NCBI GenBank assembly: GCA_028716025.1
Contig: JAQUQP010000015.1
Coordinates: 1-19,969 of the forward strand
Direction: 5' to 3'
Source: a bacterium
Lineage (GTDB): Bacteria > UBA6262
DNA length: 19,969 nucleotides
The notes under the pieces are model-generated. The model did not search any database, was not told the origin of the DNA, and saw only the letters and a program-made list of their open reading frames with translations. Positions 1 through 19,159 of the stretch are shown one piece after another. Within the stretch, counting starts at the first letter, position 1; each line of letters opens with the position of its first letter. The translations under genes and the position numbers were made by a program.

Positions 1-248
1 TAATCGTGTTGAAAGATAAGAAAGGCCAAGTTATCGGAACCCTTAGTGCGATCAGGGAATTTTCCAAGACTGGTAAGATCATTGAAGAGCTGGATAACTC
101 CAGGAAAGAATTGCGTCAGAAGATCGAGGAAATGCAGTTGTTACACAGGACTACCATGGATCGGGAAAAACGGATCATCGCTTTGAAAGAGCAGGTCGAT
201 ACCCTAAAACAGGAACTGGCTAGAGATAAGGGCACTCAAACTATATGA
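1..248 (+). CDS. PAS/PAC-domain signalling protein, C-terminal end only
   Basis: This is the 3' end of a gene that starts before the window. The reading frame is open from base 3 (Ile-Val-Leu-Lys-Asp) to the TGA at 246-248, so the GTG at base 6 is probably an internal valine. The first 25 or so residues (LKDKKGQVIGTLSAIREF) resemble the end of a PAS/PAC domain. The rest is a charged heptad-like coiled coil rich in Glu, Lys, Leu and Gln, ending at TQTI. The TGA overlaps the ATG of the following histidine kinase (ATGA), so the two are very likely co-translated and may work in one phosphorelay. No kinase or output domain is visible in this fragment, so the full function is unknown. Confidence 0.7.
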   Translation, partial: IVLKDKKGQVIGTLSAIREFSKTGKIIEELDNSRKELRQKIEEMQLLHRTTMDREKRIIALKEQVDTLKQELARDKGTQTI

Positions 249-3200
249 GAATGGTCAGCCTCAGAGAAAAAATGCTGGTAAATAACTTATTATTGACTTG
301 CGTGATCCTGGTCACGGTCAGTATTTATACTTACTATTCCGTCTCTTCTATCCGCAAACAGACTATTGCGGAAAACCTTCATGGCCGGGCTTTGATCATC
401 GCCAGTAATATGGCTAAGGAGATCAAGGAAGAGGCAGATAACTTGTCAGAATTGTCACGCAGTTTCAATTTTACGCTGCCACTGCAGCAGGCCAATGCCG
501 CTTATGGCAACATCCCGGACCGACAACATTATTTTGCCGTCCAGGACCAACAATGGTTGGCTTTACCGCCAGAATCACCGCTGGTTAGAAAATATACCGG
601 ATCACCGGCCGGGAATTATTTAAAAAGATATGCCGACATAATGGATAAAACCAGTGAGGTATTTGTCACTGACCGGTTTGGCGGCTTGGTAGCGGCCTCG
701 AGGAAGACCTCGGATTTTTACCAAGGTGATGAAGAGTGGTGGAAAAAAACTTTTAACGACAATACGGAAATCCCATACATCGGGCAGATTGAATTTGATG
801 AATCGAGCCAAACCTGGTCCATACCTATTTGTTTGCCGATCAGAGATGACCATGGCAATATTACTGGCGTGTTGAAAGAAGTTTTTAATATTAAGAATGA
901 ATTGGAAGGGATGGAAGCTCTGAACAATATTCCCGGGAGCGCCGCGGTATTGACCGATCAGGCCGGTAATATTATGATCAGGGACTTGCGAAAGAGGGCT
1001 ATCGGTATTGCTTTTAACCGGGAAGTGAAAGAACTAATCGTGTCCGGAGATAGATCCTGGGTCATAGGTTCAGATATTAATAACCACAACGCGATAATCA
1101 CTTGCGCGGTGGTTAAAAATGATATTTTGCAGGCTAATCAATTACAATGGATGATCTGTTTATCCCAGGAAACAGCTATTGCTTATGCCCCGATCAGGCA
1201 GATGTTCGCCAGGCAGTTCGCGTTGGCTGCGGGATTGTTGCTGGTACTGATACCTTTCAATGTTTTCTTTAGCCGCCGGATCGTTGATTCTATCGCTCAA
1301 CTGCAGCAAGCGATGCAAAGGGTATCTACCGGGGACCTGAATTACCGGCCTTGTATAAAAACCGGGGATGAGATCGAACAATTAGCCCAATCTTTTAATT
1401 GGATGATCACCGACCTAAAGACGGCTCATCAGGAAATAACCGACCGGAAGTTATTCTTTGAGAATATTATTAATAATATGAGCGATTCATTGGTAGTTTT
1501 GCATAATGACGGCACTATCCGGGAAGTAAACAATATAACTTTAAAACTATTGGGATATACCCGGGAGGAACTTACCAATAAGACAGTTGATATCTTATTC
1601 CAGGAAGGTGAGAGCGTCGAGATCCTGGCTGACCTCATAACTAAGACTAAAAGAAGCCCGACCAGCAGCGTGATCGTGAAATATCGCACTAAAACTCTGG
1701 TACCCATCCCGATCAGCCTTTCCTGCACAATGGTGCGGGACAAGAAGAATGAAATTGACGGCATGATCCTGGTAGGGACCGATCTACGGGAAAACCTGCA
1801 GTTGATCGAAGAGCTTAATAATTCCAAGACCGCTCTGGAACAATATAACCTGACCCTGGAAGAAAAGATCAGGGAACGCACCAAAGTCTTGGAACAGGCA
1901 CTACAGGAAGCCAAGGAATCCAGGGAAGTGATGCTTTCACTGTTGGAGGATTTTGAAGAAAACCGGAAAGAAATGGAAGCTATGCAAGGGAAGTTATTGG
2001 AGTGGAATGAAAAAATCTCGGTGTTAGTTGAATCATTGAACGAAGGCGTGATTATGCTGGATGAAAATGGTAAGATCGCGGTGAGCAATGAAATGGCCAG
2101 ACACCTGCTGGAATGTAAGGATGATGACAAAGACTGCGCCAAAGCTTTGGAAATATTGACTAATGCGGGTTTGGATTTGAGTTTGGTGGAATCATGGGAA
2201 AAAAGCAAATTGATCAGTAAGGAAGTAAAATTGGGAGAAGACCCGGGCCGGATCTTGCACTTTGATATTGCTCCTGTTTTTAAAGAGGGCAAAGTGATCA
2301 TCGGGCTGGCTTTGGCGTTCCGGGATGTAACCAGGCAAAAAGAAACAGAACGCTTGAAAACCGAATTTATTTCCACGGTATCCCATGAATTAAGAACCCC
2401 GATCACTTGTATACGCGAGTCTATAGCCCAGGTAGTGGAAGGGATAAAAGGGGAGATCAACCCGGGGCAGAAAGAGTTTTTGCAAATTGCCACGGATGAG
2501 ATCGACCGGCTTACCAGGATCATTAATGATCTGCTCGATGTTTCCAAGATCGAAGCGGGTAAGGTTACTTTAAATAAGCTGGAATATGATATCGTGCCGG
2601 TGATCCAGGCCGTGGCCAAGAACCTGGAAATAAAAGGTGGGGCGCGGCAGATTGCTCTGGAAACACATTTGGGTATGCCCAGGGCTACTTTGTTCTTTGA
2701 TGAAGATCGGATCAAACAGGTGCTTGGCAATTTGATCGACAACGCGATAAAGTTTTCGGCGGACCAGGGGAAAGTGGATATTTACCTGATGGATAAAGGC
2801 CGGGAGATCGAGATCACGGTGGAAGACCACGGGCGGGGCATAGCCGCGGAGAATTTTCATAAAATATTTGACCGGTTTGAACAGATCAATCGTACTACGG
2901 GGCCAGGGTATCGTGGCACTGGCTTGGGCCTGGCTATAAGCAAGAGCCTGGTCGAAATGCACGGAGGCACTATCCGTGTCCAAAGTGAGTTGGCCAAAGG
3001 CTCTAAATTTATTTTTACCTTACCCAAATTGTCGGCTGATGCCGTGTATCATGACTTATTAAGAGAGCAAGTGAATAAAGCCAAAAAAGAATATGAAAAC
3101 CTGGCCTTGATCCTGATCAGGTTGAAGAATAGACCGGGACCGGAGGGTATCCAGGTCATGGACGCGATAGAGGCAGCCGCCAGATATACGGTCAGGAGAG

Positions 3201-3418
3201 CGGATGACCAAGTGTTGCGGTTTGAAGAGCGCTCTTTGGTCGGCATCCTGGTGCGTTCCGCCCGTCCAGGGGCTGTTTCCCTGCAGCGCCGGATACTGGA
3301 TAACAGCAGGGAAAAACAAGTTAATATTGATGATCTGTCTTGCGCAATAGTCATGTATCCGGAAGATGGCAATGAAGCTGAGGAATTACTGCGGCTGGCC
3401 AAAACTAAATTAGGGTAA
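245..3418 (+). CDS. Membrane sensor histidine kinase (Cache-HAMP-PAS-PAS-HisKA-HATPase) with degenerate GGDEF-like tail
   Basis: A 1057-residue inner-membrane sensor kinase. In order: transmembrane helix at about 13-33; a large extracytoplasmic region (about 34-318) that looks like a double Cache ligand-binding domain; a second helix near 322-342; a HAMP linker with the typical P-less GDLNYRP and DEIEQLAQSFNWM elements; a PAS domain (about 400-520); a coiled coil (about 520-600); a second PAS (about 605-700); a HisKA dimerisation domain with canonical SHELRTP (phospho-acceptor His714); and a HATPase domain with N-box Asn833, DHGRGI and GTGLGLAIS. The last 120 residues resemble a GGDEF fold (LLREQVNKAKKE at the start, YPEDGNEAEELLRLAKTKL at the end), but the signature is replaced by EERSL at 994-998, so it should not make c-di-GMP. 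The ATG overlaps the upstream stop; a second ATG lies two codons in. A receiver gene follows by 24 bases. Confidence 0.93.
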   Translation: MRMVSLREKMLVNNLLLTCVILVTVSIYTYYSVSSIRKQTIAENLHGRALIIASNMAKEIKEEADNLSELSRSFNFTLPLQQANAAYGNIPDRQHYFAVQDQQWLALPPESPLVRKYTGSPAGNYLKRYADIMDKTSEVFVTDRFGGLVAASRKTSDFYQGDEEWWKKTFNDNTEIPYIGQIEFDESSQTWSIPICLPIRDDHGNITGVLKEVFNIKNELEGMEALNNIPGSAAVLTDQAGNIMIRDLRKRAIGIAFNREVKELIVSGDRSWVIGSDINNHNAIITCAVVKNDILQANQLQWMICLSQETAIAYAPIRQMFARQFALAAGLLLVLIPFNVFFSRRIVDSIAQLQQAMQRVSTGDLNYRPCIKTGDEIEQLAQSFNWMITDLKTAHQEITDRKLFFENIINNMSDSLVVLHNDGTIREVNNITLKLLGYTREELTNKTVDILFQEGESVEILADLITKTKRSPTSSVIVKYRTKTLVPIPISLSCTMVRDKKNEIDGMILVGTDLRENLQLIEELNNSKTALEQYNLTLEEKIRERTKVLEQALQEAKESREVMLSLLEDFEENRKEMEAMQGKLLEWNEKISVLVESLNEGVIMLDENGKIAVSNEMARHLLECKDDDKDCAKALEILTNAGLDLSLVESWEKSKLISKEVKLGEDPGRILHFDIAPVFKEGKVIIGLALAFRDVTRQKETERLKTEFISTVSHELRTPITCIRESIAQVVEGIKGEINPGQKEFLQIATDEIDRLTRIINDLLDVSKIEAGKVTLNKLEYDIVPVIQAVAKNLEIKGGARQIALETHLGMPRATLFFDEDRIKQVLGNLIDNAIKFSADQGKVDIYLMDKGREIEITVEDHGRGIAAENFHKIFDRFEQINRTTGPGYRGTGLGLAISKSLVEMHGGTIRVQSELAKGSKFIFTLPKLSADAVYHDLLREQVNKAKKEYENLALILIRLKNRPGPEGIQVMDAIEAAARYTVRRADDQVLRFEERSLVGILVRSARPGAVSLQRRILDNSREKQVNIDDLSCAIVMYPEDGNEAEELLRLAKTKLG

Positions 3419-3431
3419 TGAAAAGTAGGCT

Positions 3432-3437
3432 AGGAGG
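3432..3437 (+). promoter_or_regulatory. Shine-Dalgarno site deciding the GTG start of the receiver gene
   Basis: A perfect AGGAGG five bases before the GTG at 3443. It supports this non-ATG start, since no in-frame ATG lies nearby before the conserved receiver core. Confidence 0.75.
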
Positions 3438-3442
3438 AACTA

Positions 3443-3826
3443 GTGTCCTTTAACAAAAAAATACTGGTGGTAGATGATGAGCCTCATGTCCGGATCCTCT
3501 TGAAATCAAGGCTGGAGGCCAATGGCTTTAGCGTAGTCACGGCTTATGGCGGGATACAGGCCCTGGAAAAAATAAAGGAAGAGAAACCCGATCTGATCCT
3601 ATTGGATATTGTTATGCCTGATATGAATGGATATGAAGTCGCCAAACAATTAAAGGCTGATCCTGAAACAGCCAAGATCCCCATCATTATTTTCACCGCG
3701 TCCAACGTCCGGGAACTGGAAGATCAATGCCGGTGCCTGGGTGTGGATTATATCATCATGAAACCATTTTCGCCGGAAGTAATGCTGGGTATGGTCAAGG
3801 ACCTATGTAGAAAGAATGAGGTATAA
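3443..3826 (+). CDS. Single-domain response regulator (CheY-like receiver)
   Basis: A 127-residue stand-alone receiver domain with no output domain. The acidic pair is Asp11-Asp12 (VVDDEP), the phospho-acceptor Asp55 (LLDIVMPD), the conserved Thr85 (IIIFTAS) and the Lys107-Pro108 pair (IMKPF), so it should be phosphorylatable. It lies 24 bases after the large sensor kinase gene and starts at GTG behind a perfect AGGAGG, which makes it the likely phospho-transfer partner of that kinase. It could act through protein-protein contacts as CheY and Spo0F do, or pass phosphate on in a relay; no phosphotransfer protein is visible here. It might also serve the soluble kinase at 8470, which has no adjacent receiver. 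Confidence 0.93.
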   Translation: MSFNKKILVVDDEPHVRILLKSRLEANGFSVVTAYGGIQALEKIKEEKPDLILLDIVMPDMNGYEVAKQLKADPETAKIPIIIFTASNVRELEDQCRCLGVDYIIMKPFSPEVMLGMVKDLCRKNEV

Positions 3827-3845
3827 ATCATATATTTACCGGGGG

Positions 3846-3926
3846 CCCCGTTAGACCTAAACGGTCTAGGGGATTTCAGAATGACAGTACAGCTGTATTG
3901 AAATCATATAATGGAGGTCTAAGGGG
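3846..3926. repeat. Inverted-repeat element, copy A
   Basis: Arms CCCCGTTAGACCT (3846-3858) and AGGTCTAAGGGG (3915-3926) are reverse complements except for one extra base in the left arm. A second inward arm GGTCTAGGGG (3863-3872) lets the left part fold into a tight hairpin with loop TAAAC. The element has no protein-coding capacity. Its right arm reaches the GTG start codon of the next gene and carries that gene's GGAGG. Related elements sit at 10055-10159 and 16863-16953. It may be a MITE-like or REP-like repeat; the hairpin lacks a U-tract, so it is a weak candidate for a terminator of the receiver operon. Confidence 0.65.
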
Positions 3927-5158
3927 TGAAACGTATAATTTGTTTTTGTTGTTTATTGATGTTAATCTTTTTCAATTCTGCTTCGGCCTGGGCGCGGAGC
4001 AAAGTAGAGATCGTGAAAAACGTGATGGGTCAATACCAACTTCTGGTTAACGGCCAATTGTATTTTATCCGCGGAGTCTGTTACCATCCGGTTCCCATCG
4101 GCGGTAATTCTGATTACAATTTTTTCGGTGATCCGCACCAGCCCTGGTTGCTGGACGGCCAGATGATGAAAGAAGCAGGTATTAATACGGTCCGTTTTTA
4201 CCAGCCAGGAGAAAACATTCATCAGACAAAAAGGGTGATCACCGACCTGTATAAGAACTTTGAGATCAGCTGTATCATGGGCCACTGGCTGGATTGGTGG
4301 CAGGCGGATTACGCTAATCCCCAATTCCAGGAATTAGTGACTAAAGAAGTCTTGGACATGGTCAGGACTTATAAAGATACGCCTGGCATCCTAATGTGGG
4401 TCCTGGGTAACGAAAATAATTATTCCTTCGCGCCCCAGAAAATTAATTACTGGACTAGTCCGGAACTGGAAAAGATCAGTGACCCATATAAGAAGAAGAT
4501 CGCCCAAGCCAAGATCTATTATTCTTTTGTCAATAAACTGGCCGGGAAGATCAAGCAGCTCGATCCGGGTCATCCGGTAGTACTGGGTAACGGGGACTTG
4601 GCGACGATCTCGGTAGCCGCGCAATATAATTCTCACATTGATGTGCTAGGTTCAGTCTGTTATCGCGGCAAGAGTTTCGGCAATTTCTGGCGGGAAGCGG
4701 ACCGGGAGTGGAAAAAACCGGTGCTGATGCTGGAGTTTGGCTGTGATGCCTACGATGCTTATAAAAAACGTGAAGACCAGCAGGTCCAGGCTGATTTTGT
4801 CAAGAGCCAATGGAAGGAAATAGCGGAAAATGCCATGGGCGGCCTGGGTTTTGGCAACTCTCTGGGCGGTTTTCTTTTTGAGTGGAGTGATGAATGGTGG
4901 AAACGCGAAGGCGGTAGCTTGAGCGAACAGGATACTGATGCTTTTTGGTCTAACGGTGCCTATTGGAAAGACATAAAAGCGGAAGGAAATATGAACATGA
5001 ATGAGGAATGGTGGGGGATGGTGGCCCTGGATAAAACCATAATCAACGGTCTGAATATGCGCAAGCCGCGGCTGGTTTATGATGTGGTCCAGCAAATGTT
5101 TACCGGGAAGAAAATGAAAAAGGAAACTAAAACAACGAGTGAGGAGAAGAAGAAATGA
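3926..5158 (+). CDS. Secreted clan GH-A glycoside hydrolase-like protein
   Basis: A 410-residue exported protein with an N-terminal signal peptide (hydrophobic 4-16, likely cleavage after ASAWA, near residue 23). The body resembles the TIM-barrel catalytic domain of clan GH-A (GH2/GH5-like): LVNGQLYFIRGVCYHP near 39-54, KEAGINTVRFYQP, MWVLGNENN with probable acid/base Glu163 after Asn162, and VLMLEFG with probable nucleophile Glu270. Both catalytic glutamates are therefore present and it is plausibly active on a beta-linked sugar; the substrate cannot be told. It starts at GTG, with GGAGG eight bases upstream inside the repeat element. The lysine- and glutamate-rich tail is partly the by-product of coding through the purine-rich ribosome binding site of the next gene, whose ATG overlaps this stop. 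Co-transcription with Hsp20 and Lon is unexpected for an exported glycosidase. Confidence 0.8.
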   Translation: MKRIICFCCLLMLIFFNSASAWARSKVEIVKNVMGQYQLLVNGQLYFIRGVCYHPVPIGGNSDYNFFGDPHQPWLLDGQMMKEAGINTVRFYQPGENIHQTKRVITDLYKNFEISCIMGHWLDWWQADYANPQFQELVTKEVLDMVRTYKDTPGILMWVLGNENNYSFAPQKINYWTSPELEKISDPYKKKIAQAKIYYSFVNKLAGKIKQLDPGHPVVLGNGDLATISVAAQYNSHIDVLGSVCYRGKSFGNFWREADREWKKPVLMLEFGCDAYDAYKKREDQQVQADFVKSQWKEIAENAMGGLGFGNSLGGFLFEWSDEWWKREGGSLSEQDTDAFWSNGAYWKDIKAEGNMNMNEEWWGMVALDKTIINGLNMRKPRLVYDVVQQMFTGKKMKKETKTTSEEKKK

Positions 5159-5565
5159 GCGGCAATAAGGAGGATCTGTTCGATAATTTTGGTGTGCTAT
5201 CCTATGAAATGAATAAATTCTTTAATCAAATGCTGAAATGCAAAACTCCTCCCCGCATGAGTTGCCGGCAAACCTGGTGCCCGCCTTGCGATGTCTATGA
5301 AACATTGAAAAGTGTTATCGTGTGCCTGGAGGTCCCGGGGATCAAGCGTAAAGATTTTGAGGTAGCGATCAATAACAATATCTTATTGGTCCGCGGCCGC
5401 CGTCGGGAAGCCCGCGCGGTAGAAAAGATCAATTATTACCAGATGGAAATACATTATGGCCTTTTTGAACGGGTCATCCCACTGCCGGCTACCATTGCCG
5501 CCAGCAAGATCAAAACAATCTGCGCCAATGGGTTTATTGAGATCACTGTGCCCAAGAAGAAATAA
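5155..5565 (+). CDS. Small heat-shock protein, Hsp20/alpha-crystallin family
   Basis: A 136-residue holdase-type chaperone of the cytoplasm. The alpha-crystallin domain runs from about residue 46 (DVYET) to the end: LEVPGIKRKDFEV, NNILLVRGRRRE, the HYGLFERVIPLP strand motif and the terminal NGFIEITVPKKK. There is little after the domain, so the I-x-I tail used for oligomer contacts is short or absent. The N-terminal region is odd: it carries Cys29, Cys37, Cys42 and Cys45, the last two as CPPC directly before the domain, with Cys57 inside it. The ATG overlaps the stop of the glycosidase gene and has GAGGAG eight bases upstream. Lon follows after 23 bases, linking the holdase with a protease in one unit. 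Confidence 0.93.
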   Translation: MSGNKEDLFDNFGVLSYEMNKFFNQMLKCKTPPRMSCRQTWCPPCDVYETLKSVIVCLEVPGIKRKDFEVAINNNILLVRGRRREARAVEKINYYQMEIHYGLFERVIPLPATIAASKIKTICANGFIEITVPKKK

Positions 5566-5588
5566 TTTAATCCAGACGAGGAGCTCGT

Positions 5589-7928
5589 ATGTATGAAGAA
5601 AAAGTTCGTATAGATCTGCCTACAGAAGTACCGATCTTACCTGTTCGCGATACGGTTTTTTATCCCTTTGTCGTGAGCCCGATCATTATTGGCCGCGAAA
5701 AATCGATCCGGCTGGTAGAAGATGCCCTGGTCAAGGATAAGATCATTGCCCTTTTTTCCCAAAAAGATGCTAATGCCGAAGACCCGCAAGTCACCGACCT
5801 TTATGATATGGGGACAGTCGTGCTCATCCTGAAAATGCTGAAGTTCCCTGACGGGTCCCTGCGGTTGATCGTGCAGGGTTTAAGCCGGGCGAAACTGAAA
5901 GGTATCGTACAGGCAGAACCTTACCTGAAGGGCCGAATAGAGGTACTGGAAGAGGTTGAAGAGAGAAGCTTGGAAGTGCAGGCGATGATGCGCAATGTCC
6001 TCTCGCTATTCCAAAAACTGGTGAACCTGGCTCCTTATTTAAGCGAAGAAGTTTATATCGCGGCAATGAATATTGAATCACCTAACAAATTAAGTGATTT
6101 TATCTCTTCTAACCTGACCCTGGATATCAGGATCAAGCAGGAGTTATTAGAAACAGTCGATATTAAAATGAGACTGGAACGGTTGACCCTTTATTTAACC
6201 GAAGAACTGGCGGTCCTGGAATTAGGCAGTAAGATCCAAACACAGGTGCGGACCGAGGTGGACCGCACGCAAAAAGAATTTTTCCTGCGTAAACAAATGG
6301 AAGCGATCCAGCGGGAACTGGGTGAAGGCGATGAGAAAACCATCGAGTTGAATGAGTTGAAGATAAAGATCAAAGAAGCTAAGATGCCGCCGGAAGTAGA
6401 AAAGGAAGCCGAGCGTGAATTGCTGCGCCTGATGAAAATGCCTTTTGCCGCTGCAGAGTATACGGTTAGCCGTACTTATTTGGATTGGATGATAGCCCTG
6501 CCTTGGAGCAAAGCCACGGCAGATATGCTGGATATTGCCAAGGCCAGGCAGATCCTGGATGAAGATCATTATGACTTGGAAAAGCTGAAACAGAGGATCC
6601 TGGAATATCTGGCGGTCAGAAAATTGCGGCCCGAAGCTAAGGGGCCGATATTATGTTTCATCGGTCCTCCGGGTACCGGAAAAACCTCTTTGGGTCGGTC
6701 TATTGCCAGGGCTTTGGGCAGAAAATTTGTGCGCATCTCTTTGGGTGGTATCAGGGATGAAGCTGAGATACGCGGGCATCGCCGTACGTATGTCGGCAGT
6801 TTACCCGGCCGGATCATCCAGGGTATCCGCCGGGCTGAAACTAATAACCCGGTCTTTATGCTGGATGAGATAGACAAGATCGGTGAAGATTTTCGCGGCG
6901 ATCCGGCCAGTGCCTTACTGGAAGTACTGGATCCGGAGCAGAATAATACTTTTTCCGATCATTACCTGGATGTGCCTTTTGACCTGTCCCGGGTTATTTT
7001 TATAGCCACCGGAAATATTCTGGATCCAGTGCCCCCGGCCTTACGTGACCGCATGGAAGTACTGGAATTACCAGGCTATACCCAAAATGAAAAATTGTTG
7101 ATCACTCAGAAATACCTGATACCCAGGCAAACCAAGGAACACGGTTTGACGGAAGCTAACATAGAATTTACACCGGCTGGGGTATTGAAAGTTATTACCA
7201 GTTATTCTAAGGAAGCCGGACTGCGCAATTTGGAGCGGGAAATCGCTTCTGTTTGCCGGAAGGTAGCCACTAGAGTAGCTGAAGGTATAACCGTAAAGGT
7301 TATCGTGAGTGACCAGAATATACAGGAATTCCTGGGACCGCAAAAGTTTATTCCTGAAGTGGCTGAGAAAAAAGATGCCGTAGGAGTGGCTACCGGTATG
7401 GCCTGGACCCCGATGGGCGGGGAGATACTGTTCATTGAATCCTCCAAAATGCGGGGTAATAAGGGTTTAACCCTGACCGGCCAGTTGGGAGACGTAATGA
7501 AAGAATCAGCCCAGGCGGCATTGAGCTATATCCGGTCCCATGCCCAAGACTTGAATATACCTGATGACTTCTTTGAAACTATGGATATCCACGTGCATGT
7601 TCCCGCAGGGGCCATTCCCAAGGACGGCCCGTCGGCGGGGGTCACCATGGCTACATCACTGGTTTCTCTGTTGAGCGGGAGAGCGGTCAAACATGATCTG
7701 TCCATGACCGGAGAAATTACTCTGCGCGGCGAAGTTTTGCCGGTAGGAGGCATCAAGGAAAAAGTGCTAGCTGCTCACCTGGCCGGCATTAAGACTATTA
7801 TTTTACCTAAAAAGAATGAAGGCGATCTGGAAGATATTCCCCAAGAAATACGGGAAAAAGTAAAATTTGTCCTGGTTGATAAATTAGCTGATGTGCTGCA
7901 GGAAGCGCTAAATCCAAAGGCTGCTTAA
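5589..7928 (+). CDS. lon: ATP-dependent Lon protease
   Basis: A full-length LonA of 779 residues, a cytoplasmic AAA+ serine protease that degrades misfolded and regulatory proteins. The N-terminal substrate-binding domain starts at [16 protein letters not shown]. The ATPase core has Walker A GPPGTGKT (359-366, Lys365) and Walker B MLDEID (Asp426, Glu427), followed by the sensor region [19 protein letters not shown]. The C-terminal protease domain has PKDGPSAG with catalytic Ser682 and GGIKEK with catalytic Lys725, the same 43-residue distance as Ser679 and Lys722 of E. coli Lon. The ATG has GAGGAG five bases upstream. It sits between hsp20 and an archaemetzincin-like gene (5-base gap), so it is likely part of a stress operon. 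No HrcA/CIRCE-type palindrome was seen. Confidence 0.98.
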
Positions 7929-7933
7929 TAGTC

Positions 7934-8461
7934 ATGATCAAAATTGGTCTTGTTCCTATAGGACAAATATCGGAAGCCTTGTTGCTACAACTGACCGCGC
8001 AGATAAAGGGCAAGTTGAAAAACAGTGATCTGGCGGTACAGCTCCATACAGCTCTGGTCTTGCCGGAAAAAACCGCTCCGGCTTTTGTCCTGGCCCGCTT
8101 GGCGCACCTGCTAAATAGTGATCAACAAAAGTATTTAATAGGCCTGGTTGAAGCCGATATTTCCGAATCTGAAGATGATTTTATCTATACTCGTGAAGAG
8201 CATAACCGGAAAATGGGCATTATCGCCTTGCCCCGGTTGCGGCCAGAGTTCTACAAATTACCAGCCAATGAAGCGATCTTTCAGGCCCGTGTCCTGAAAT
8301 TAATCCTGCGTGAAATAGCTTTGCTGTTGGGTCTTGGATTATGCCAGGACAAGAAGTGCTTGATGTACCATGCCCGCAACCTGCACGAGATCGATATTAA
8401 ATATCCTTCCTTTTGCCTTGATTGCTGGCCGCTATTCAATACCGCAATGTCTAAAAAATAA
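7934..8461 (+). CDS. Archaemetzincin-like protein with catalytic zinc ligands lost
   Basis: A 175-residue protein of the usual archaemetzincin (AmzA) size. The family signature is HExxHxxGxxHC-x4-C-x-M-x17-C-x2-C. Here the matching stretch is REIALLLGLGLC (126-137), then C142, M144, C161 and C164. All four structural-zinc cysteines (137, 142, 161, 164), the Met and the Glu127 are kept, but the three catalytic-zinc histidines are Arg126, Leu130 and Leu136. Other family-like parts are the N-terminal MIKIGLVPIGQI and the FIYTREEHNRKMGIIALPRLRPEFY strand. It should therefore keep the fold but lack peptidase activity. The frame is intact, with no sign of gene decay. It begins 5 bases after lon without a clear Shine-Dalgarno site, suggesting translational coupling, and is followed by a sensor kinase after 8 bases. 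An adaptor or regulatory role beside Lon is inference. Confidence 0.82.
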   Translation: MIKIGLVPIGQISEALLLQLTAQIKGKLKNSDLAVQLHTALVLPEKTAPAFVLARLAHLLNSDQQKYLIGLVEADISESEDDFIYTREEHNRKMGIIALPRLRPEFYKLPANEAIFQARVLKLILREIALLLGLGLCQDKKCLMYHARNLHEIDIKYPSFCLDCWPLFNTAMSKK

Positions 8462-8469
8462 GAGGTTTT

Positions 8470-10041
8470 ATGGAAGCTAAAGACCTGGCGCAGTTATTGG
8501 AAATAAACAAGATCCTTAATTCTACCCTGGACCTGGGAGAATTATTGACTATTATCGTGGAACAGTCGGCGGTAGTGGCGAAAGCGGAAGCCGGCAGTCT
8601 CATGCTATTGGATCCCCTGACTAATGAACTGGTATTTGATATCGCCCTGGGAGAGAAGGGTGAACAAGTAAAACAGATCAGGTTAAAAGTGGGCGAGGGT
8701 ATTGCCGGTTGGGTGGCCCAAGAACGAAAAGCGCTTATCGTTAATGATGTCGAAAAAGATCCCCGATGGAGCTCACGTGCCGATACTAAATCCAATTTCA
8801 AGACCAGGTCTATGATGTGCGTGCCGCTGATTTACAAAGATAAAATAAGCGGAGTTATGGAAGTTATCAATAAGAAGGATAACGGGATTTTCGGCGCGGA
8901 GGACCAGCAAATACTGGAAGCTCTGGCCGCGCAAGCGGCGGTAGCCATAGAGAATGCCCGTCTTTTCCAGGAAGTCCGGGAGAAAAAAGAAGAGATAGAA
9001 GCCGTCTTTAAAGGAATGAGTGATGGCGCGATAGTAACTGATGCCAATTACCAGGTGTTAATGCTGAATGAGTCCGCGGTGCGCCTGTTGGGCCTGGGGA
9101 GAGACCAATTGCTCGGACATCATTTCTTGGATATGATGCGGGGTAACTATGATTTTTCCATCCCCTTGCAGGAGCTTATCGGCAGGTCAGCAGGCTATGA
9201 GCTGAAACGCCGCGAGGGAAAAAAATATTTTCTCGAGTGCGCTATTACCAGGATCAATGACGAGCAACAAAAAGTAGTGGGCTATATTATACTATTGCGG
9301 GATATAAGTGAAGCCAAGAAAGAAAGCTTGCTTAAACAAAACTTCCTGTCAGTGATCTCGCATAAATTAAGAACTCCTTTGACCAGTATTTTGGGCTATT
9401 CAGCCATTCTCTTACTTGATCAGAAAACGAAAAAAACCCTCTCTGATTTCCAGGATCGGGCGCTTAGAGATATTGACCGGCAAGGTCATCAGCTGACAGA
9501 TCTGGTTAATAAGCTACTGGCCTTTACTCTAGTTGAGGGTGATGTACTGGAGCTGAACCGGAAAGTTGTTGACCTGAAAGGGATAATCAAGGGGATATTC
9601 GGCCATTTCCATGAAGAGGTTTTCCAAAAAGGGGTTAAACTGGAGGTGGACGCTTCCTGCAATGCCGTTACCAGTCTTTATGCTGATGAGGAAAAGATCA
9701 AAGAAGTTTTTTTTAACCTGGTTGATAACGCTATTAAATTTAATGATAAAAAAGATAAAATTGTGAGTATCAGCTGCCGGAAACTATCCGGTGAAATGAT
9801 CGAGTTCAGTATTTCTGATAACGGGCCGGGTATCCCGCCTGAGGAATATGATAGGATATTCCAGTTATTTTACCAGATCGAAGAGGCCTTTACTGGCCAA
9901 ACCGAAGGGGTAGGATTGGGATTACCGCTCGTGAAAAGGATCGTTGAAGGGCATGGTGGTTCAATCAGGGTGGAAAGTGGTCCGCCTACAGGCAGCCGGT
10001 TTATTTTTACTCTGCCGGCCCAAAAAATACTGGAAAATTAA
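8470..10041 (+). CDS. Soluble GAF-PAS sensor histidine kinase with SHKLRTP H-box
   Basis: A 523-residue kinase without membrane segments. The GAF domain spans about 1-165 (GEGIAGWVAQERKALIVNDV, FKTRSMMCVPL, AAQAAVAIENARLF). A short coiled coil leads to a PAS domain (about 178-285). The HisKA domain has phospho-acceptor His298 in SHKLRTP; the usual Glu after the His is Lys299. The HATPase domain (about 395-515) has FFNLVDNAIKFND, ISDNGPGIPP and EGVGLGLPLVKRIVEGHGG. The ATG follows AGAGG, and the gene lies 8 bases after the metzincin-like gene, closing the presumed operon. There is no adjacent response regulator; the closest in the window is the CheY-like protein at 3443. The ligand is unknown, and no haem- or chromophore-binding residues stand out. 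Confidence 0.93.
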   Translation: MEAKDLAQLLEINKILNSTLDLGELLTIIVEQSAVVAKAEAGSLMLLDPLTNELVFDIALGEKGEQVKQIRLKVGEGIAGWVAQERKALIVNDVEKDPRWSSRADTKSNFKTRSMMCVPLIYKDKISGVMEVINKKDNGIFGAEDQQILEALAAQAAVAIENARLFQEVREKKEEIEAVFKGMSDGAIVTDANYQVLMLNESAVRLLGLGRDQLLGHHFLDMMRGNYDFSIPLQELIGRSAGYELKRREGKKYFLECAITRINDEQQKVVGYIILLRDISEAKKESLLKQNFLSVISHKLRTPLTSILGYSAILLLDQKTKKTLSDFQDRALRDIDRQGHQLTDLVNKLLAFTLVEGDVLELNRKVVDLKGIIKGIFGHFHEEVFQKGVKLEVDASCNAVTSLYADEEKIKEVFFNLVDNAIKFNDKKDKIVSISCRKLSGEMIEFSISDNGPGIPPEEYDRIFQLFYQIEEAFTGQTEGVGLGLPLVKRIVEGHGGSIRVESGPPTGSRFIFTLPAQKILEN

Positions 10042-10054
10042 CTTTAATGGTAAA

Positions 10055-10159
10055 CCCTGTTAGACCTTTTAAGCTAAGTGGTGGAATTAACGTGGCAATA
10101 CTTCGATAAATTTACTCTGAAAGACATAACGAAAATAGTCTCATGGAGGTCTAACAGGG
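10055..10159. repeat. Inverted-repeat element, copy B
   Basis: The 13-base arms CCCTGTTAGACCT (10055-10067) and AGGTCTAACAGGG (10147-10159) are perfect reverse complements enclosing 79 bases with no coding capacity. The right arm with flanks, ATGGAGGTCTAA, matches the right arm of the element at 3846. It fills most of the 163-base gap between the kinase and the sigma-factor gene. The predicted ECF promoter begins just inside its outer edge (AACT at 10162). Confidence 0.75.
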
Positions 10160-10161
10160 TA

Positions 10162-10187
10162 AACTATTTTGTTTATCAGGCGTCTAT
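10162..10187 (+). promoter_or_regulatory. Putative ECF-type promoter of the sigma-factor operon
   Basis: AACT (10162-10165), 16 bases, then GTCTAT (10182-10187). The spacing and several spacer bases (TTTTG near the -35 side, GG before the -10) match the sigma-E-like promoter before htrA at 19160. ECF sigma genes commonly drive themselves, so self-activation is plausible. It implies a leader of only about 10 bases before the ATG at 10205, which favours the GTG at 10208 as a possible alternative start. Confidence 0.5.
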
Positions 10188-10204
10188 AGAGGTAGATGAG
10201 GTAG

Positions 10205-10813
10205 ATGGTGGAAAGCCAGGAGTTGGACCAGCAGCTAATTGATAAGTTCAAGAACGGGGACCAGGCAGCTTTTGGATTACTCCTGGAAAAATACCAGCAA
10301 AGAGCCTACTATTTCTGCTTGCACTTAGTGAGCCGCCCGGAAGACGCGGAAGATCTGGCCCAGGAAGGATTTGTCAAGGTCTTTAGGAATATACATACTT
10401 TTCGAGGTACAGCCAGTTTCCGGACCTGGTTCTACCAAATCTTACTGAACTTATGCCGCAGTTATCACCGGCACCGGTATCTGGTTAACCGATTTACCTT
10501 TAATTTCAGCCAGTTGGATACGGAAAATGATGAGCCAGGGCAGTCTTTGGAAACCAGCGTGCCGGATCAAAGCCTGGATGGCGATCCGCAGCGTTTGATC
10601 GATAATGAGGAATTAAAACTACAATTGGAGAAAGCGCTCCAAGACCTGCCTCGACAACAGAAGGAGATCTTTACTTTAAAGCATTTTGAGGAATTAAAGA
10701 TCAACGAGATCGCCGGGATTACCGGATTGGCTGAAGGAACAGTGAAAGTCCATTTATTCAGGGCAGTGCGGCGATTGCAGGAAGTATTGAAGGAATTCAA
10801 TGGACAGGGGTAG
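10205..10813 (+). CDS. ECF-type RNA polymerase sigma factor (RpoE-like)
   Basis: A 202-residue sigma-70 family protein of the extracytoplasmic-function class. Region 2 covers about 18-85 (FGLLLEKYQQRAYYF, RPEDAEDLAQEGFVKVF, FRTWFYQILLNLCRSYHR). The linker has an acidic stretch (about 102-125). Region 4 covers about 138-198, with LPRQQKEIFTLKHFEELKINEIA and the helix-turn-helix GLAEGTVKVHLFRAVRRLQE that reads the -35 element. A membrane zinc-finger anti-sigma factor follows after 6 bases, so it is presumably held inactive until an envelope signal arrives. The chosen start is the ATG at 10205; the GTG at 10208 fits the GAGG at 10198-10201 slightly better. Its likely targets in the window are its own promoter and htrA. 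Confidence 0.95.
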   Translation: MVESQELDQQLIDKFKNGDQAAFGLLLEKYQQRAYYFCLHLVSRPEDAEDLAQEGFVKVFRNIHTFRGTASFRTWFYQILLNLCRSYHRHRYLVNRFTFNFSQLDTENDEPGQSLETSVPDQSLDGDPQRLIDNEELKLQLEKALQDLPRQQKEIFTLKHFEELKINEIAGITGLAEGTVKVHLFRAVRRLQEVLKEFNGQG

Positions 10814-10819
10814 ATAATC

Positions 10820-11296
10820 ATGAGCTGTAAAAAGATCCAGCAGAAATTGATCGGTTACTATTACCAGGAACTCGATGGGCCCGCGATGTCTGATATAGCC
10901 AGGCACCTGGAAACATGTGATCCCTGCCGGCAGGCCTACATACAGATCAAAAAAACCTTAACTATGGTCGCTCGGGAACAAGTAGAGAAAAACAGGTCCT
11001 CGGCTTTTTGGCAGGATTTTCAATATAAAGTGTATCAGAAATTGGAAGCTGAAAAAGAAGCCGGATCCCGGTGGCATAGATTACTGATACCGCGCAGGCT
11101 GGCGCCGGCTTTAGCCGGAGCAGTTATCCTGCTCTTACTTCTGGTTACCAGTAAACAGCTGGTCAAACAGGGAACAGAACTTAATTCCTCTGACCTGCAG
11201 GTAGTAGAGGATCTGGAACTGATCGAGAACTATGAATTGATCCAGGATCTGGAGATGCTGGAAAATTTGCCTGAGGCGGAGCAGCTGCGAGGATAA
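10820..11296 (+). CDS. Membrane anti-sigma factor with zinc-finger domain and acidic outer tail
   Basis: A 158-residue single-pass protein. The cytoplasmic N-terminus has the anti-sigma zinc-binding signature His29-x3-Cys33-x2-Cys36 (RHLETCDPC), with Cys3 as the likely fourth ligand. A transmembrane helix lies at about 94-111 (LAPALAGAVILLLLLV). The outer tail (about 112-158) is strongly acidic and holds hexapeptide units DLELIE, then NYELIQ, then DLEMLE, with L/Y alternating at the second position. It should bind the ECF sigma factor encoded 6 bases upstream and release it on an envelope signal. The tail module recurs in the next gene product, suggesting both meet the same periplasmic partner. 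The start ATG has CAGGGG nine bases upstream. Confidence 0.9.
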   Translation: MSCKKIQQKLIGYYYQELDGPAMSDIARHLETCDPCRQAYIQIKKTLTMVAREQVEKNRSSAFWQDFQYKVYQKLEAEKEAGSRWHRLLIPRRLAPALAGAVILLLLLVTSKQLVKQGTELNSSDLQVVEDLELIENYELIQDLEMLENLPEAEQLRG

Positions 11297-11298
11297 AT

Positions 11299-11535
11299 AT
11301 GCAAAATAACGGCAGACTGCTCATTTTAATAATAATGACCGCTATGTTGTCGAAAATACCAATGGCCTACTCGAACCAGGATGATCTAGACCAAGAAATC
11401 ATTGATAATCTGGATCTGGCGCAGGACTACCAGTTGGCGGATAACCTGGAATTAGTGGATAATTATGACGTATTGTTGACGACAACACCCGCGGAAACGG
11501 ATAGAGACGAAGGGGAAATCGATGAAAACAACTAA
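11299..11535 (+). CDS. Small exported or membrane-anchored acidic repeat protein
   Basis: A 78-residue protein of no recognised family. Residues 1-25 form a signal peptide or anchor (LLILIIMTAML, possible cleavage after MAYS). The mature part is almost entirely acidic, with hexapeptide units NLDLAQ, then DYQLAD, then NLELVD, then NYDVLL, the same pattern as the outer tail of the anti-sigma factor just upstream. It follows that gene by 2 bases with CGAGG as ribosome binding site, and its end overlaps the start of the DUF3106-like gene by 14 bases. The tight coupling, the shared repeat and a clear signal sequence argue that this short gene is real. A role as decoy, sensor or co-factor of the anti-sigma factor is inference. 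Confidence 0.8.
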   Translation: MQNNGRLLILIIMTAMLSKIPMAYSNQDDLDQEIIDNLDLAQDYQLADNLELVDNYDVLLTTTPAETDRDEGEIDENN

Positions 11536-12019
11536 AGTATTTAAAAAAACGTTCCTGCTGGCAGTTCTCTTACTGGTTGCTGGTACGCTCTGGGGACAGG
11601 ATACGAACCGGGAGCGTTGGCAACAGTTGACCCCGGAACAAAAGCAATCCTTGCGGCAGGCTTATCAGGATTGGCAAAAATTAAGTCCAGAGCGGAAACA
11701 AGAAATCAAATCCCGGCTGCAAAGATTCAAGAAATTACCGCCGGAGGACCAAGCCCGGATCCGGACCAACTTAAAACGTTTTCAACAGCTTTCCCCTGAA
11801 GAGAAAAAAACGCTTAAAGAAAATTACCAGCGCTGGCAAAAACTTAGTCCTCAGGAACGGCAGCAGATCAGGCAGAGTTACCGACGTTGGCAACAGTTGA
11901 CCCCGTCGCAAAGGCAAGAGTTGAGACAGAAACTGCAGAAGTTCCGGCAGTTACCGCCGGCCCAACGCAAAGCGATCATCCAGCAGCGGATGAAACAAAG
12001 AAAAGAGCCAAATAAGTAA
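11522..12019 (+). CDS. Periplasmic DUF3106-like basic repeat protein (LTxxQ-type)
   Basis: A 165-residue exported protein. The signal peptide is at 1-25 (FLLAVLLLVAGTLWG, likely cleavage before QDTN). The rest is seven units of exactly 18 residues, each starting W or F-x-x-L-[STP]-P-x-x-[KR], with the order W, W, F, F, W, W, F, and predicted to be helical throughout. LTPEQ and LTPSQ recall the LTxxQ motif of CpxP/Spy/ZraP periplasmic stress proteins. The protein is very rich in Arg, Lys and Gln, opposite in charge to its two upstream neighbours. DUF3106 genes are known beside ECF sigma and anti-sigma genes in proteobacteria, matching this layout. AAGGGG at 11510 sets the start. It may sense misfolded envelope proteins or bind the acidic tails; both are inference. 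Confidence 0.82.
   Translation: MKTTKVFKKTFLLAVLLLVAGTLWGQDTNRERWQQLTPEQKQSLRQAYQDWQKLSPERKQEIKSRLQRFKKLPPEDQARIRTNLKRFQQLSPEEKKTLKENYQRWQKLSPQERQQIRQSYRRWQQLTPSQRQELRQKLQKFRQLPPAQRKAIIQQRMKQRKEPNK
11615..11905 (+). repeat. Tandem 54-base coding repeats of the DUF3106-like gene
   Basis: The 18-residue protein units correspond to 54-base DNA units. Two distant units still share a perfect 21-base match (11615-11635 and 11885-11905, beginning CGTTGGCAACAG), exactly 270 bases or five units apart. Intervening units have drifted, so this pair points to a more recent duplication or gene conversion of a multi-unit block. Confidence 0.75.
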
Positions 12020-12021
12020 AA

Positions 12022-13014
12022 ATGAAAAAAGCAATAGTATCGTTTTTATGGCTGGCAGCATTTACGACTTTGCTGCCGGCTATGGTTTATGGCAGACTGG
12101 GGATAAGCACTACGCTCACTGCCGGACCGGATAAATACTTGGCGAACTTTACCTCTTTGAGGATAAGCCTGTCGCCTAAACTAGATCTGGAAGGTACTTA
12201 TAGCCATATCGATTCCGACCTAACGAGCCAGCCTCTCCAGATGTTTACCGGAGGAGTGAGCGTAATCTTGACCGACGACCTTAGCCTCAGAGGCAATTAT
12301 TCATTTACTTCGCCCGCGGCTGGGTATGAGGCGAATGGCTATGCTCTGGGGACAACAGTGTCTCTCTCCGGAGATAGTAATTTTCAAACGGCTATTGATC
12401 TTGATTATGGCATAGAGAATAATGTTTATAATGTACATACTGATAGTTTTACCGCTTATTACAGGAATGGCCGGGGGAGATACCGGCAGATTATCGTATC
12501 AGCCAAGGATACAACTGAGACAATTAAACAGGTTGTCTGGACAATGGGTATTACTGAAACTTTTTATGAAGATACTTCACTATACCTGGGTTATTCTAAT
12601 TACCGTTATGATCCTGATATTGAAGGGGATGTAGTCCTTTATGACGCCTCTGCCAGACAAAATAATTTCCAGATCTTTAGCTTAACGCCTGGATTGGCAG
12701 GATTCCCGAAATATAGCTACGAAATAAGGATCAGCCGGAACTTTTTGTCACTATGGACCGTGAACACCGGGTATCTCCATGCCGGTATTCTGCAATTCAC
12801 GCTCAATGAGAATGATACTCCGGCTAATGGCACGGTCGGCAATTTGCTGGATGATTTTTATGAAGTAGCAGGGGTAAGCGCTGACTCATATTCTTTGGGC
12901 CTTGAATACTGCCTGAACTCCTGGATCGCGTTGAACACCGGATATAATTTATACCGGGAAGCTTACCAAGATATTAATTCTTACTATAGTCTGGGGATCA
13001 CTCTTACCTTCTAA
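12022..13014 (+). CDS. Predicted outer-membrane beta-barrel protein
   Basis: A 330-residue protein with signal peptide 1-24 (AIVSFLWLAAFTTLLPAMVYG). The mature part is made of alternating amphipathic strands rich in Tyr, Gly, Ser and Thr (for example SLRGNYSFTS, SLYLGYSNYRYDP, SYSLGLEYCLNSW), and the protein ends YSLGITLTF with the terminal Phe typical of barrels inserted by the BAM machinery. Strand count suggests 12 to 16 strands; the family is not recognised. It starts 2 bases after the DUF3106-like stop without a clear ribosome binding site, so it is probably translationally coupled and the last gene of the sigma operon. It could be a porin-like client or target of the stress response. 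Confidence 0.75.
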   Translation: MKKAIVSFLWLAAFTTLLPAMVYGRLGISTTLTAGPDKYLANFTSLRISLSPKLDLEGTYSHIDSDLTSQPLQMFTGGVSVILTDDLSLRGNYSFTSPAAGYEANGYALGTTVSLSGDSNFQTAIDLDYGIENNVYNVHTDSFTAYYRNGRGRYRQIIVSAKDTTETIKQVVWTMGITETFYEDTSLYLGYSNYRYDPDIEGDVVLYDASARQNNFQIFSLTPGLAGFPKYSYEIRISRNFLSLWTVNTGYLHAGILQFTLNENDTPANGTVGNLLDDFYEVAGVSADSYSLGLEYCLNSWIALNTGYNLYREAYQDINSYYSLGITLTF

Positions 13015-13037
13015 TTTCCACAGTTCTGGTAAATACC

Positions 13038-13066
13038 TTGACAAAGGAGCTGATTTATCTTAAAAT
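13038..13066 (+). promoter_or_regulatory. Near-consensus sigma-70 promoter
   Basis: TTGACA (13038-13043), a 17-base spacer, then TAAAAT (13061-13066): a perfect -35 and a one-mismatch -10 at ideal spacing, 24 bases after the barrel gene and 28 before the next ATG. It marks a new housekeeping transcription unit starting at the cyclic-nucleotide-binding gene. Confidence 0.8.
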
Positions 13067-13093
13067 ATTAAAAATATTGCTGGGAGCGCGCCT

Positions 13094-13540
13094 ATGGATA
13101 TTACCCAGGTCCTGCAAAAAACGTTTGTCTTCCGGGATTTGCCGCCAGAAGAGATACAAAAATTGTCAGCTGTATTACACCGTCGCGGGTTTAATGCAGG
13201 TGACCTTTTTTTTGAGGAGGGAGAACCGAGTAAGACCATATATATAATTGAAGAAGGCACGATGCAGATAATTAAAAAGACGGGTCGGGAAAGCAAAGTA
13301 CTCAATACCCTGCAAGGCGGTGACCTGTTCGGTGAAATGGCTTTTATCGAACAGAAACCGCGTTCTGCTTCTGCCCGGGCCGCAACTCAGGGGATCATCT
13401 GGAGTATGACCGCGGTTGATTTTGCCGCTGTTTTAAAGGAATTGCATGCTGCCTCGGTAGTGAAAATAATGATCAAGTTCCTGCAAGTAATGAGCCAGCG
13501 TTTACGTGAAACCACTGACCAGGTCAAAGGATTGGTCTAA
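13094..13540 (+). CDS. Stand-alone cyclic-nucleotide-binding domain protein
   Basis: A 148-residue protein that is essentially one cNMP-binding domain (about 5-125) plus a C-terminal helix. It has the glycine turns of the fold (EEGEPSKTIYIIEEGTMQII) and a phosphate-binding cassette GDLFGEMAFIEQKPRSASA with the conserved Glu and Arg for the ribose and phosphate of cAMP or cGMP. There is no helix-turn-helix, so unlike Crp/Fnr regulators it should not bind DNA; it probably acts as a regulatory subunit or protein-binding switch. It is led by a strong sigma-70 promoter at 13038, with GGGAG before the ATG. A class III adenylate cyclase is encoded 3.4 kb downstream, a possible source of its ligand. 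Confidence 0.88.
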   Translation: MDITQVLQKTFVFRDLPPEEIQKLSAVLHRRGFNAGDLFFEEGEPSKTIYIIEEGTMQIIKKTGRESKVLNTLQGGDLFGEMAFIEQKPRSASARAATQGIIWSMTAVDFAAVLKELHAASVVKIMIKFLQVMSQRLRETTDQVKGLV

Positions 13541-13581
13541 AAATAAAGCAACTGAAAATTTACAAGTAAAGGCGGTAAGTC

Positions 13582-15411
13582 ATGTATCGTAAAACGTGTA
13601 GTATACCTGCGGTCATACTATTGATCTTGTTTTTACCCCTGGTTATTTGGGGAAAGGCTTTGAGCGGCGGGCAACCTGGCAGCTTCCTGCATTTGGGCCA
13701 GAGTGCCAGGGCTCTGGGTATGGGTAATTGTTTCACCGCGATCAGTGATGATGTAACCGCCATGTATTATAATCCTGCAGGATTGACCCAACTACTGAAA
13801 TATGAACTTTATACTTTTTATTGCCCGTTATGGGAAGATACCAATTACAATTTTATAGGTTATGCTCATCCGCTGGAAAAAATGGGCACTTTTAGCGTGG
13901 CCCTGCTCAATATGACTAGCGGCGAATTTGAGAAAAGGGCAGCGGTCGATAGTGAAGCGACCAGTTTTTCCGTCAATGATCGGGCTTTTTTGTTATCTTA
14001 TGGCTATAATCTTTCCAATCGTTTGTCTGTCGGTACCACAGTAAAATCGATTAAAAAGACCGTAGACATATATTCTGGTTCCGCTTTTGGGATTGATGCC
14101 GGAGTGTTATACCGTTTTCTCGGAAACCAATTGTCGGTCGGCGCTAATTTCCAGAACCTGATGGCTCCGGCGCCAAAATTACAGACTGAAGCTGATAAAT
14201 ATCCGCTTTATTCCAAATTCGGGGTAGCGTACAAATTAGAACCAGCCTTGACTACCTGGGAAGATAAACTGATCCTCGCCTTAGACGTGGATTATTCCAG
14301 TTTCTTAACCGCGAAAAACCATGTTGGCGTAGAATACTGGTATGGAAAAAACATGGCTCTCCGGGTGGGTAAAGATATCAGTAATTACCTGACTTTTGGC
14401 TTAGGAGTTAATTATGCCAGTTTCAGTTTTGACTATGCCGCTGTTCCCCATGACCTGGGATTAAGCCATAGGATCAGCGTGGGATATCGCTTTGGTTATA
14501 TCGGCGAAGCCCAATACAGCTTGCAGGCGATCAAAGAAAAAGTAACTGCTTTAGACCAATCCGGCACAGAACTGTATAACAACAAAAAATATGCCATGGC
14601 CCTGACTGAATGGGAAAAAGCTCTCGTCTGGGATCCGCAAAATGCCTCTATCCAGGAGAAAGTGAACCGCGTCAACGCGGAACTGGAATCTTTTGTTAAC
14701 CGGAAGCTGGTAGAACAATACTTGAGCAAAGCTTACGTGCTGTATGAAGAAGGCAAATTGGTGGATTCCATGGAACAATGGAAAGAAGTGGCCAAACTGG
14801 ATCCGGGTAATGAGCGGGCGAAAGAATATATCGCTAAGATAGATGCTAAGTTAGTCAAAGAGGACCAGGCAATATTAGAGGAACGGGAAAAAGAGAAAAC
14901 TATAGTAAGTATAAATTCCCTCATTAAATCCGGTGATAACTTCGCTGACCAGGGGATGTACGCTGAAGCGATCAAGGAATATCAGAAAGTACTCAAGATC
15001 AATCCAGATCATTTAACCGCGAACAAACGGATAAGTGATACCCAATTGACGATCCGGGCTTTGATCCGGGAACATTATGATAAAGCTGAGGGATTATACA
15101 AAAGCGGGGACAAACCCAATGCGGTCAAGGAATTCTGGCTGGTGCTGCGCTTAGACCCTTCCAATGCCGCGGCCAGGGACTACTTGGATAAAATAAAACA
15201 AGAAGAGAAGCCGGTACAAGTTTCCAAGAAGATCGATGAAAAGAAGATCAAACAGATGTATTACCGGGCGGCGGACCTGTATTTAAAAGGGCAATACCAG
15301 GAAACGATCATGGCTTGTAATGAGTTGTTGTCCATAGATCCGACGAACGAGAACGCGGTTAAGCTGGTCACTAAGGCGCAAAGCGTTTTAGAGAAAATCG
15401 GTGGAAAATAG
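13582..15411 (+). CDS. PorV/UPF0164-type outer-membrane protein with C-terminal TPR domain
   Basis: A 609-residue exported protein. The signal peptide is about 1-26. Residues 30-320 match the PorV/PorQ (UPF0164) barrel family: GSFLHLGQSARALGMGNCFTAISDD, then AMYYNPAGLTQL near the start, and repeated barrel strands up to SHRISVGYRFGYIGE. Residues about 325-609 are a helical tail with five TPR-like units (NNKKYAMALTEWEKALVWDP, then EEGKLVDSMEQWKEVAKLDP, then DQGMYAEAIKEYQKVLKINP, then KSGDKPNAVKEFWLVLRLDP, then LKGQYQETIMACNELLSIDP). In Bacteroidota PorV takes part in type IX secretion; here only the fold similarity is seen. The TPR tail would sit in the periplasm or at the surface as a docking platform. 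The gene precedes a Kelch protein with a sorting-like C-terminal domain. Confidence 0.85.
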   Translation: MYRKTCSIPAVILLILFLPLVIWGKALSGGQPGSFLHLGQSARALGMGNCFTAISDDVTAMYYNPAGLTQLLKYELYTFYCPLWEDTNYNFIGYAHPLEKMGTFSVALLNMTSGEFEKRAAVDSEATSFSVNDRAFLLSYGYNLSNRLSVGTTVKSIKKTVDIYSGSAFGIDAGVLYRFLGNQLSVGANFQNLMAPAPKLQTEADKYPLYSKFGVAYKLEPALTTWEDKLILALDVDYSSFLTAKNHVGVEYWYGKNMALRVGKDISNYLTFGLGVNYASFSFDYAAVPHDLGLSHRISVGYRFGYIGEAQYSLQAIKEKVTALDQSGTELYNNKKYAMALTEWEKALVWDPQNASIQEKVNRVNAELESFVNRKLVEQYLSKAYVLYEEGKLVDSMEQWKEVAKLDPGNERAKEYIAKIDAKLVKEDQAILEEREKEKTIVSINSLIKSGDNFADQGMYAEAIKEYQKVLKINPDHLTANKRISDTQLTIRALIREHYDKAEGLYKSGDKPNAVKEFWLVLRLDPSNAAARDYLDKIKQEEKPVQVSKKIDEKKIKQMYYRAADLYLKGQYQETIMACNELLSIDPTNENAVKLVTKAQSVLEKIGGK

Positions 15412-15415
15412 AAAA

Positions 15416-15438
15416 ACATTCTGAATTGCTCAGAATGT
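15416..15438 (+). terminator. Hairpin after the PorV-TPR gene
   Basis: A perfect 9-base-pair stem, ACATTCTGA (15416-15424) and TCAGAATGT (15430-15438), with loop ATTGC, five bases after the stop codon. The following CTTGATT is only a weak U-tract, so it may terminate inefficiently or protect the mRNA end. Confidence 0.5.
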
Positions 15439-15499
15439 CTTGATTACACGGATTCCAAAAGATAATTATGCGGATTAAAAAAATATAGCAGAGGTTAAA

Positions 15500-16861: not shown

Positions 16862-16862
16862 A

Positions 16863-18323: not shown

Positions 18324-18326
18324 TAT

Positions 18327-19019: not shown

Positions 19020-19036
19020 GAATATAGTTTGCGGAT

Positions 19037-19157: not shown

Positions 19158-19159
19158 AG

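Follow-up and report, generated by a model that had tools for sequence, protein, structure and literature searches.

A clade-wide inactivated archaemetzincin encoded directly behind lon, a candidate accessory protein of Lon

Introduction

Archaemetzincins (family M54) carry the motif HExxHxxGxxHC-x4-CxM-x17-CxxC, as given in the abstract of a published report (PMC3427221). Inactive archaemetzincins are already known, so the kind is not new. In three papers (PMC8156234, PMC4374960, PMC3427221), CarG of Myxococcus xanthus is described as archaemetzincin-like but inactive, its function depending on its binding to CarD. According to the same papers, the CarG-CarD complex acts on many extracytoplasmic function (ECF) sigma promoters, and carD and carG are translationally coupled. 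CarG retains its histidines in the motif HQx2Hx2Ex2HC and binds two zincs, as stated in PMC8156234.

Here we analyze a 175-amino-acid (aa) archaemetzincin-like protein encoded on contig JAQUQP010000015.1 of a bacterium of the UBA6262 lineage (GenBank assembly GCA_028716025.1, positions 1 to 19,969). The whole stretch of 19,969 nucleotides is referred to as the window. This protein and CarG are alike in being archaemetzincin-like without (in our protein, predicted) proteolysis, and carG is translationally coupled to its partner gene carD. Unlike CarG, which keeps its histidines and binds two zincs, the window protein has neither HQxxH nor the third His. Its status as a pseudoenzyme is firm and the comparative setting is good, whereas a partnership with Lon is unproven. 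We propose, with a probability of about 0.42, that it is a non-cutting binder that would serve Lon as a helper or regulator, not as an enzyme.

Results

An archaemetzincin without its catalytic zinc ligands

7934..8461, + strand: pseudo-archaemetzincin, 175 aa (175-codon open reading frame)
8309..8344, + strand: former catalytic motif, codons 126-137, REIALLLGLGLC versus the expected HExxHxxGxxHC
8342..8425, + strand: retained putative structural zinc site and Met-turn (C137, C142, M144, C161, C164)

Profile and fold support the assignment of the window protein to the archaemetzincins. It matched PF07998 with 44.8 bits, above the gathering cut-off of 24.4, and four PDB sequences from three archaemetzincins (best E 9.7e-11), and was found to have the archaemetzincin fold. 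It also matched the NCBIfam model NF033823 (81.1 bits, E 8.8e-23), under the 145-bit cut-off of that model. Thus, it resembles the M54 archaemetzincins AmzA and AMZ1/2 in fold, length, the four structural cysteines, the Met-turn and the motif Gly and Glu, and differs from them in the replacement of all three catalytic-zinc histidines and in its low NF033823 score. No signal peptide was seen by eye.

At the position of the archaemetzincin motif, the C-terminal part reads REIALLLGLGLC-x4-C-x-M-x16-C-x2-C, with the site residues R126-E127-I-A-L130-L-L-G133-L-G-L136-C137. HExxHxxGxxH is absent, and the three catalytic-zinc ligand positions are occupied by Arg126, Leu130, and Leu136. The motif residues Glu127 and Gly133 are retained, and Cys137, Cys142, Met144, Cys161, and Cys164 are all present. 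Judged from these residues, the Cys4 site is a putative structural zinc site, and the protein is predicted to lack proteolytic activity. A first-pass annotation had called this gene an archaemetzincin, which profile and fold bear out, and had read the three His losses, the four cysteines and the Met correctly from the frame. The spacing from the Met to the third Cys, which it gave as 17 residues, is 16 by our count. Its claim that the catalytic site is lost holds for the three ligand positions; it did not mention that Glu127 and Gly133 are kept, and it referred neither to CarG nor to the other lineages with a dead site.

A protein search (E up to 0.001) returned 18 homologues beside the window protein, 17 of them close (P0002-P0018). 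Fifteen proteins span the site, namely the window protein and P0002-P0015, and all 15 carry Arg126, Leu130, and Leu136 as well as Cys137, Cys142, and Met144. Cys161 and Cys164 are found in 14 of the 15 (the window protein and 13 of P0002-P0015), P0015 having a different short tail; P0016 is a fragment that does not span the site. HExxH, which in close orthologues would have pointed to a recent loss in one strain, is kept by none of the 14 spanning homologues. Such a recent loss is ruled out, since all 15 site-spanning proteins share Arg/Leu/Leu. A profile search added P0020, which is 43% identical; its three ligand positions are occupied by Gln, Thr, and Arg. A sister of P0020, 42% identical to the window protein, is encoded in draft genome G004. 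In a tree, the window group was joined with P0020 and the G004 protein (support 100/99), all three histidines being absent in 8 of 8 rows.

The gene stays behind lon in related genomes

3926..5158, + strand: glycoside hydrolase-like protein (GH), secreted-looking by eye
5155..5565, + strand: small heat-shock protein of the HSP20 family (hsp20; PF00011, 53.1 bits)
5589..7928, + strand: lon (TIGR00763, 976.9 bits)
8470..10041, + strand: GAF-PAS histidine kinase, outside the deepest conserved block

GH heads the conserved block and overlaps hsp20 by 4 bases. The pseudoenzyme gene is separated by 5 bases from the lon stop (7928) and by 8 bases from the kinase ATG (8470), the tight spacing already reported by the first-pass annotation. 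Locus L001 (metagenome-assembled genome STB_115) shows the same order as the window, GH-hsp20-lon-amz-kinase-ECF sigma-anti-sigma, and locus L002 (Elusimicrobia bacterium UBA6262) begins within lon and then follows this order. In the window, L001, L002, and G004, lon lies immediately upstream of the pseudoenzyme gene, with gaps of 5, 5, 14, and 19 bases, respectively. In G004, the order GH-hsp20-lon-amz is retained despite the 42% identity of the pseudoenzymes; upstream of the block are, by eye, a type III-like glutamine synthetase and a P-type ATPase, and a large membrane protein is encoded directly downstream of the pseudoenzyme. The lon half of the previously suggested lon-amz-kinase unit is thus conserved, whereas G004 and a further draft genome, G005, do not support a fixed unit that includes the kinase.

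From lon and hsp20, and not the kinase, as the deepest fixed partners, together with the conserved dead-site residues and the kept fold, we infer a non-cutting Lon binder. The pseudoenzyme would be a dedicated accessory of Lon1, the window-type Lon, and would be made together with Lon1 and Hsp20. In the former substrate groove of the pseudoenzyme, Arg and Leu replace the zinc ligands (residues placed by homology, not from model coordinates), and this groove may bind a stretch of protein and leave it uncut. The protein could then either pass substrates to Lon or bind Lon as an allosteric regulator, and the Cys4 zinc would serve only to hold the fold together. An adaptor or inhibitor role had been offered as an inference in the first-pass annotation. 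In favour of the Lon role, no lon turned up beside the other M54 loci and the helicase-linked loci surveyed below, and CarG provides a precedent for an archaemetzincin fold that functions through binding. Small Lon accessory proteins are represented by LarA, HspQ, and SmiA; we take their folds to be unrelated to that of the window protein, which is linked to Lon through the encoding genes.

Several observations weigh against this role. Lon contact is deduced from gene order, which proves no contact. The lon link comprises four loci and one remnant from one small group, in a count that lies apart from the flanks of P0002-P0018. An HtrA-like gene, 67% identical, is located downstream in both the window (at its right end) and G004; the wider synteny has thus survived in part. 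Two of the 17 close homologues, P0017 and P0018, are out of frame or end before the site, which could reflect either broken genes or faulty assembly. Finally, G005, a single draft genome, encodes Lon (91% identical), then a 28-codon remnant frame and then the kinase. Since lon is kept there without the full pseudoenzyme, the latter is not essential for Lon, and such a role would be optional.

The G005 remnant (L125, 2957-3043) joins in frame the pseudoenzyme start and the last 25 residues, with one CxxC kept. No M54 match was found in the G005 genome, and G003 (1.3 Mb) has no M54 match and no window-type lon. A second Lon, 52-53% identical to the window-type Lon, is encoded in all five genomes G001-G005, four of which have both. 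In G005, the gene of this second Lon comes, by eye, after trigger-factor- and clpP-like genes.

Genes downstream of the pseudoenzyme might point to other partners. An ECF sigma factor and a zf-HC2 protein are encoded 1.7 kb downstream, and comparable frames are present in L001 and L002. CarG, which acts with many ECF sigma factors according to the papers cited above, was the one inactive archaemetzincin for which our literature search turned up a described function. The window protein could be a transcriptional co-regulator like CarG: a zinc protein that does not itself bind DNA but bridges a transcription factor, and that serves the ECF sigma/anti-sigma pair or the adjacent kinase. We regard this as unlikely. 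CarG needs CarD, whereas neither CarD nor CdnL was seen in the draft genomes G001-G005, a set that does not include the window's own genome. One PF02559 match per genome was detected in G001, G002, G004, and G005, in a frame of approximately 1,050 aa that is taken to be Mfd; G003 had none. Moreover, the match of the window protein to NF033824, the model of the non-proteolytic archaemetzincin-like proteins, is weak (50.7 bits versus a cut-off of 250), and no ECF sigma/anti-sigma pair was seen near the G004 pseudoenzyme, which also lacks a nearby kinase relative.

The GAF-PAS kinase itself might be the partner, with the pseudoenzyme as, for example, its sensing or inhibitory subunit. The pseudoenzyme-kinase gap of 8 bases in the window and L001 and 31 bases in L002 speaks for this. 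However, the 20 kb retrieved around the G004 pseudoenzyme showed no relative of the window kinase, and G005 has the kinase beside a mere remnant, which makes such a partnership quite improbable.

Farther downstream, the window encodes a small secreted-looking protein with repeated DUF3106 units (11522-12019); L001 and L002 have similar frames behind their ECF sigma/anti-sigma genes. A cyclic-nucleotide-binding protein (13094-13540) and a Cache-HAMP-adenylate/guanylate cyclase (16953-18323) are encoded in the same window.

Selection maintains the inactive site

The ratio of nonsynonymous to synonymous substitution rates (dN/dS) was calculated for three pairs. For the whole gene, it was 0.108, 0.116, and 0.132 at dS 0.6-1.1. 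For the part that contains the dead site (residues 97-165), it was 0.051, 0.065, and 0.064. The low ratios and the clade-wide Arg/Leu/Leu indicate that selection maintains the dead site. Sequence comparison therefore supports a loss that is clade-wide and under purifying selection, and dN/dS counts against a pseudogene.

A functionless relic that is being lost while its fold lingers would explain the internal deletion in G005, the interrupted P0017 and P0018, and residues 1-96, over which the window and L001 proteins are only 72% identical. These dN/dS values, the site intact in all 15 spanning proteins and the retention of the gene across the window-G004 divergence argue against it, and we hold it to be improbable, slightly more so than a kinase partner. 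Least probable is a zinc or redox sensor using Cys4, or an enzyme of another type using Arg126 and Glu127: both residues are invariant in the 15 spanning proteins and Cys4 is kept, but neither Arg nor Glu occurs at positions 126/127 in P0020 and G004, the deeper relatives.

Other degenerate archaemetzincins

We surveyed 386 genomes around G002. PF07998 matches were listed at 84 places in 71 of these genomes (above the cut-off in 67). Without the three lon-linked ones, 81 remained, and after removal of six weak places that were not fetched, L070 and L112, which the profile missed, and one repeat, 72 loci were analyzed. The three His and the Glu are present in 57 of them and the three His without the Glu in 2, and at least one His is absent in 13 (for L079, through an alignment gap). 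All three are absent in nine, and all nine keep the four cysteines; three are helicase-linked (L060, with another gene between it and the helicase, L061, and L067) and six are long. None of the 72 loci showed a lon in its fetched flanks (mostly 1.5-3.5 kb per side, shorter at contig ends).

The six long M54-like proteins (L062, L065, L075-L078) have 365-410 aa, with L065 and L075 showing a signal-like start by eye. Two of the six were scanned and both matched PF07998, L065 matching TPR models as well. A second M54 protein of G004 (L005, 1276-1869), secreted-looking by eye, keeps HEVGH; its third ligand is Tyr, and it has one of the four cysteines at aligned positions. In G033, an archaemetzincin-like frame (L110, 3290-3799) contains HQLGHLWELHHC, which fits the published CarG motif cited above. 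A PF02559 match precedes L110 on the same strand, and G033 has a separate NF033824 protein (L063, 332 bits).

For the helicase-linked proteins, 337 genomes around G014 were searched with a five-row profile of dead proteins, which matched in 156. The best 90 places (L139-L228), one per genome, were analyzed; the profile favours dead proteins, so the fractions are biased accordingly. None of the three His is present in 18 of the 90, one in 17, two in 51, and three in 4, so that at least one zinc His is missing in 86. The catalytic Glu is present in 4 of 90 and the Met in 24 of 90, and each of the four cysteines in 90 of 90. The helicase next to L061 has DEAD, Helicase_C, MZB, and HRQ1 winged-helix domains. 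A relative of it is encoded downstream on the same strand within 60 bases at 54 loci, at 61-150 bases at 7 and at 151-600 bases at 6; thus, an MrfA/Hrq1-like helicase lies within 150 bases at 61 of 90. It was not found at 23 loci, 3 of which have fewer than 900 bases of flank. Like the window protein, this set has lost His (to a varying degree), keeps the four cysteines and has a usual neighbour gene; the neighbour is the helicase and not lon, which was found at none of the 90 loci. Among the 120 listed of 368 close homologues of one member, all have the four cysteines and none the Glu, with two His in 114 and one in 6. Of 13 listed homologues with a named organism, 8 are from Zixibacteria/Zixiibacteriota and the others from Acidobacteria, Deferrimicrobium, Calditrichaeota or simply a bacterium.

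In approximately unbiased (AU) tests, one clade of lon-linked and helicase-linked proteins was not rejected (p-AU 0.255), nor was one that also included the five long proteins in the tree (p-AU 0.313). A single origin that also takes in L063 and P0025 was rejected (p-AU 0.0015). The groups were named after the tree had been seen, which makes these p-values soft.

Discussion

We found no report in the open-licence literature of an archaemetzincin that has lost all three His with its cysteines kept, of one positioned behind lon, or of lon- or helicase-linked archaemetzincins. The main text of a 2024 review of inactive metallopeptidase homologues (PMC11266112) contains none of the terms archaemetzincin, M54, AMZ, and CarG as whole words, plurals lying outside this check.

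It is conceivable, though rather doubtful, that in bacteria the archaemetzincin fold lost its activity on several occasions and became a Cys4-zinc binding module, each time fixed beside one machine: Lon in the window group, an MrfA/Hrq1-like helicase mainly in Zixibacteria, and CarD with RNA polymerase in myxobacteria.

If a Lon accessory role holds, the window protein would be, to our knowledge, the first protease-derived pseudoenzyme serving an AAA+ protease. The lon-adjacent pseudoenzyme and the parallel helicase-linked set have directly testable partners, and both offer a route to studying how a protease fold is converted into a binding module.
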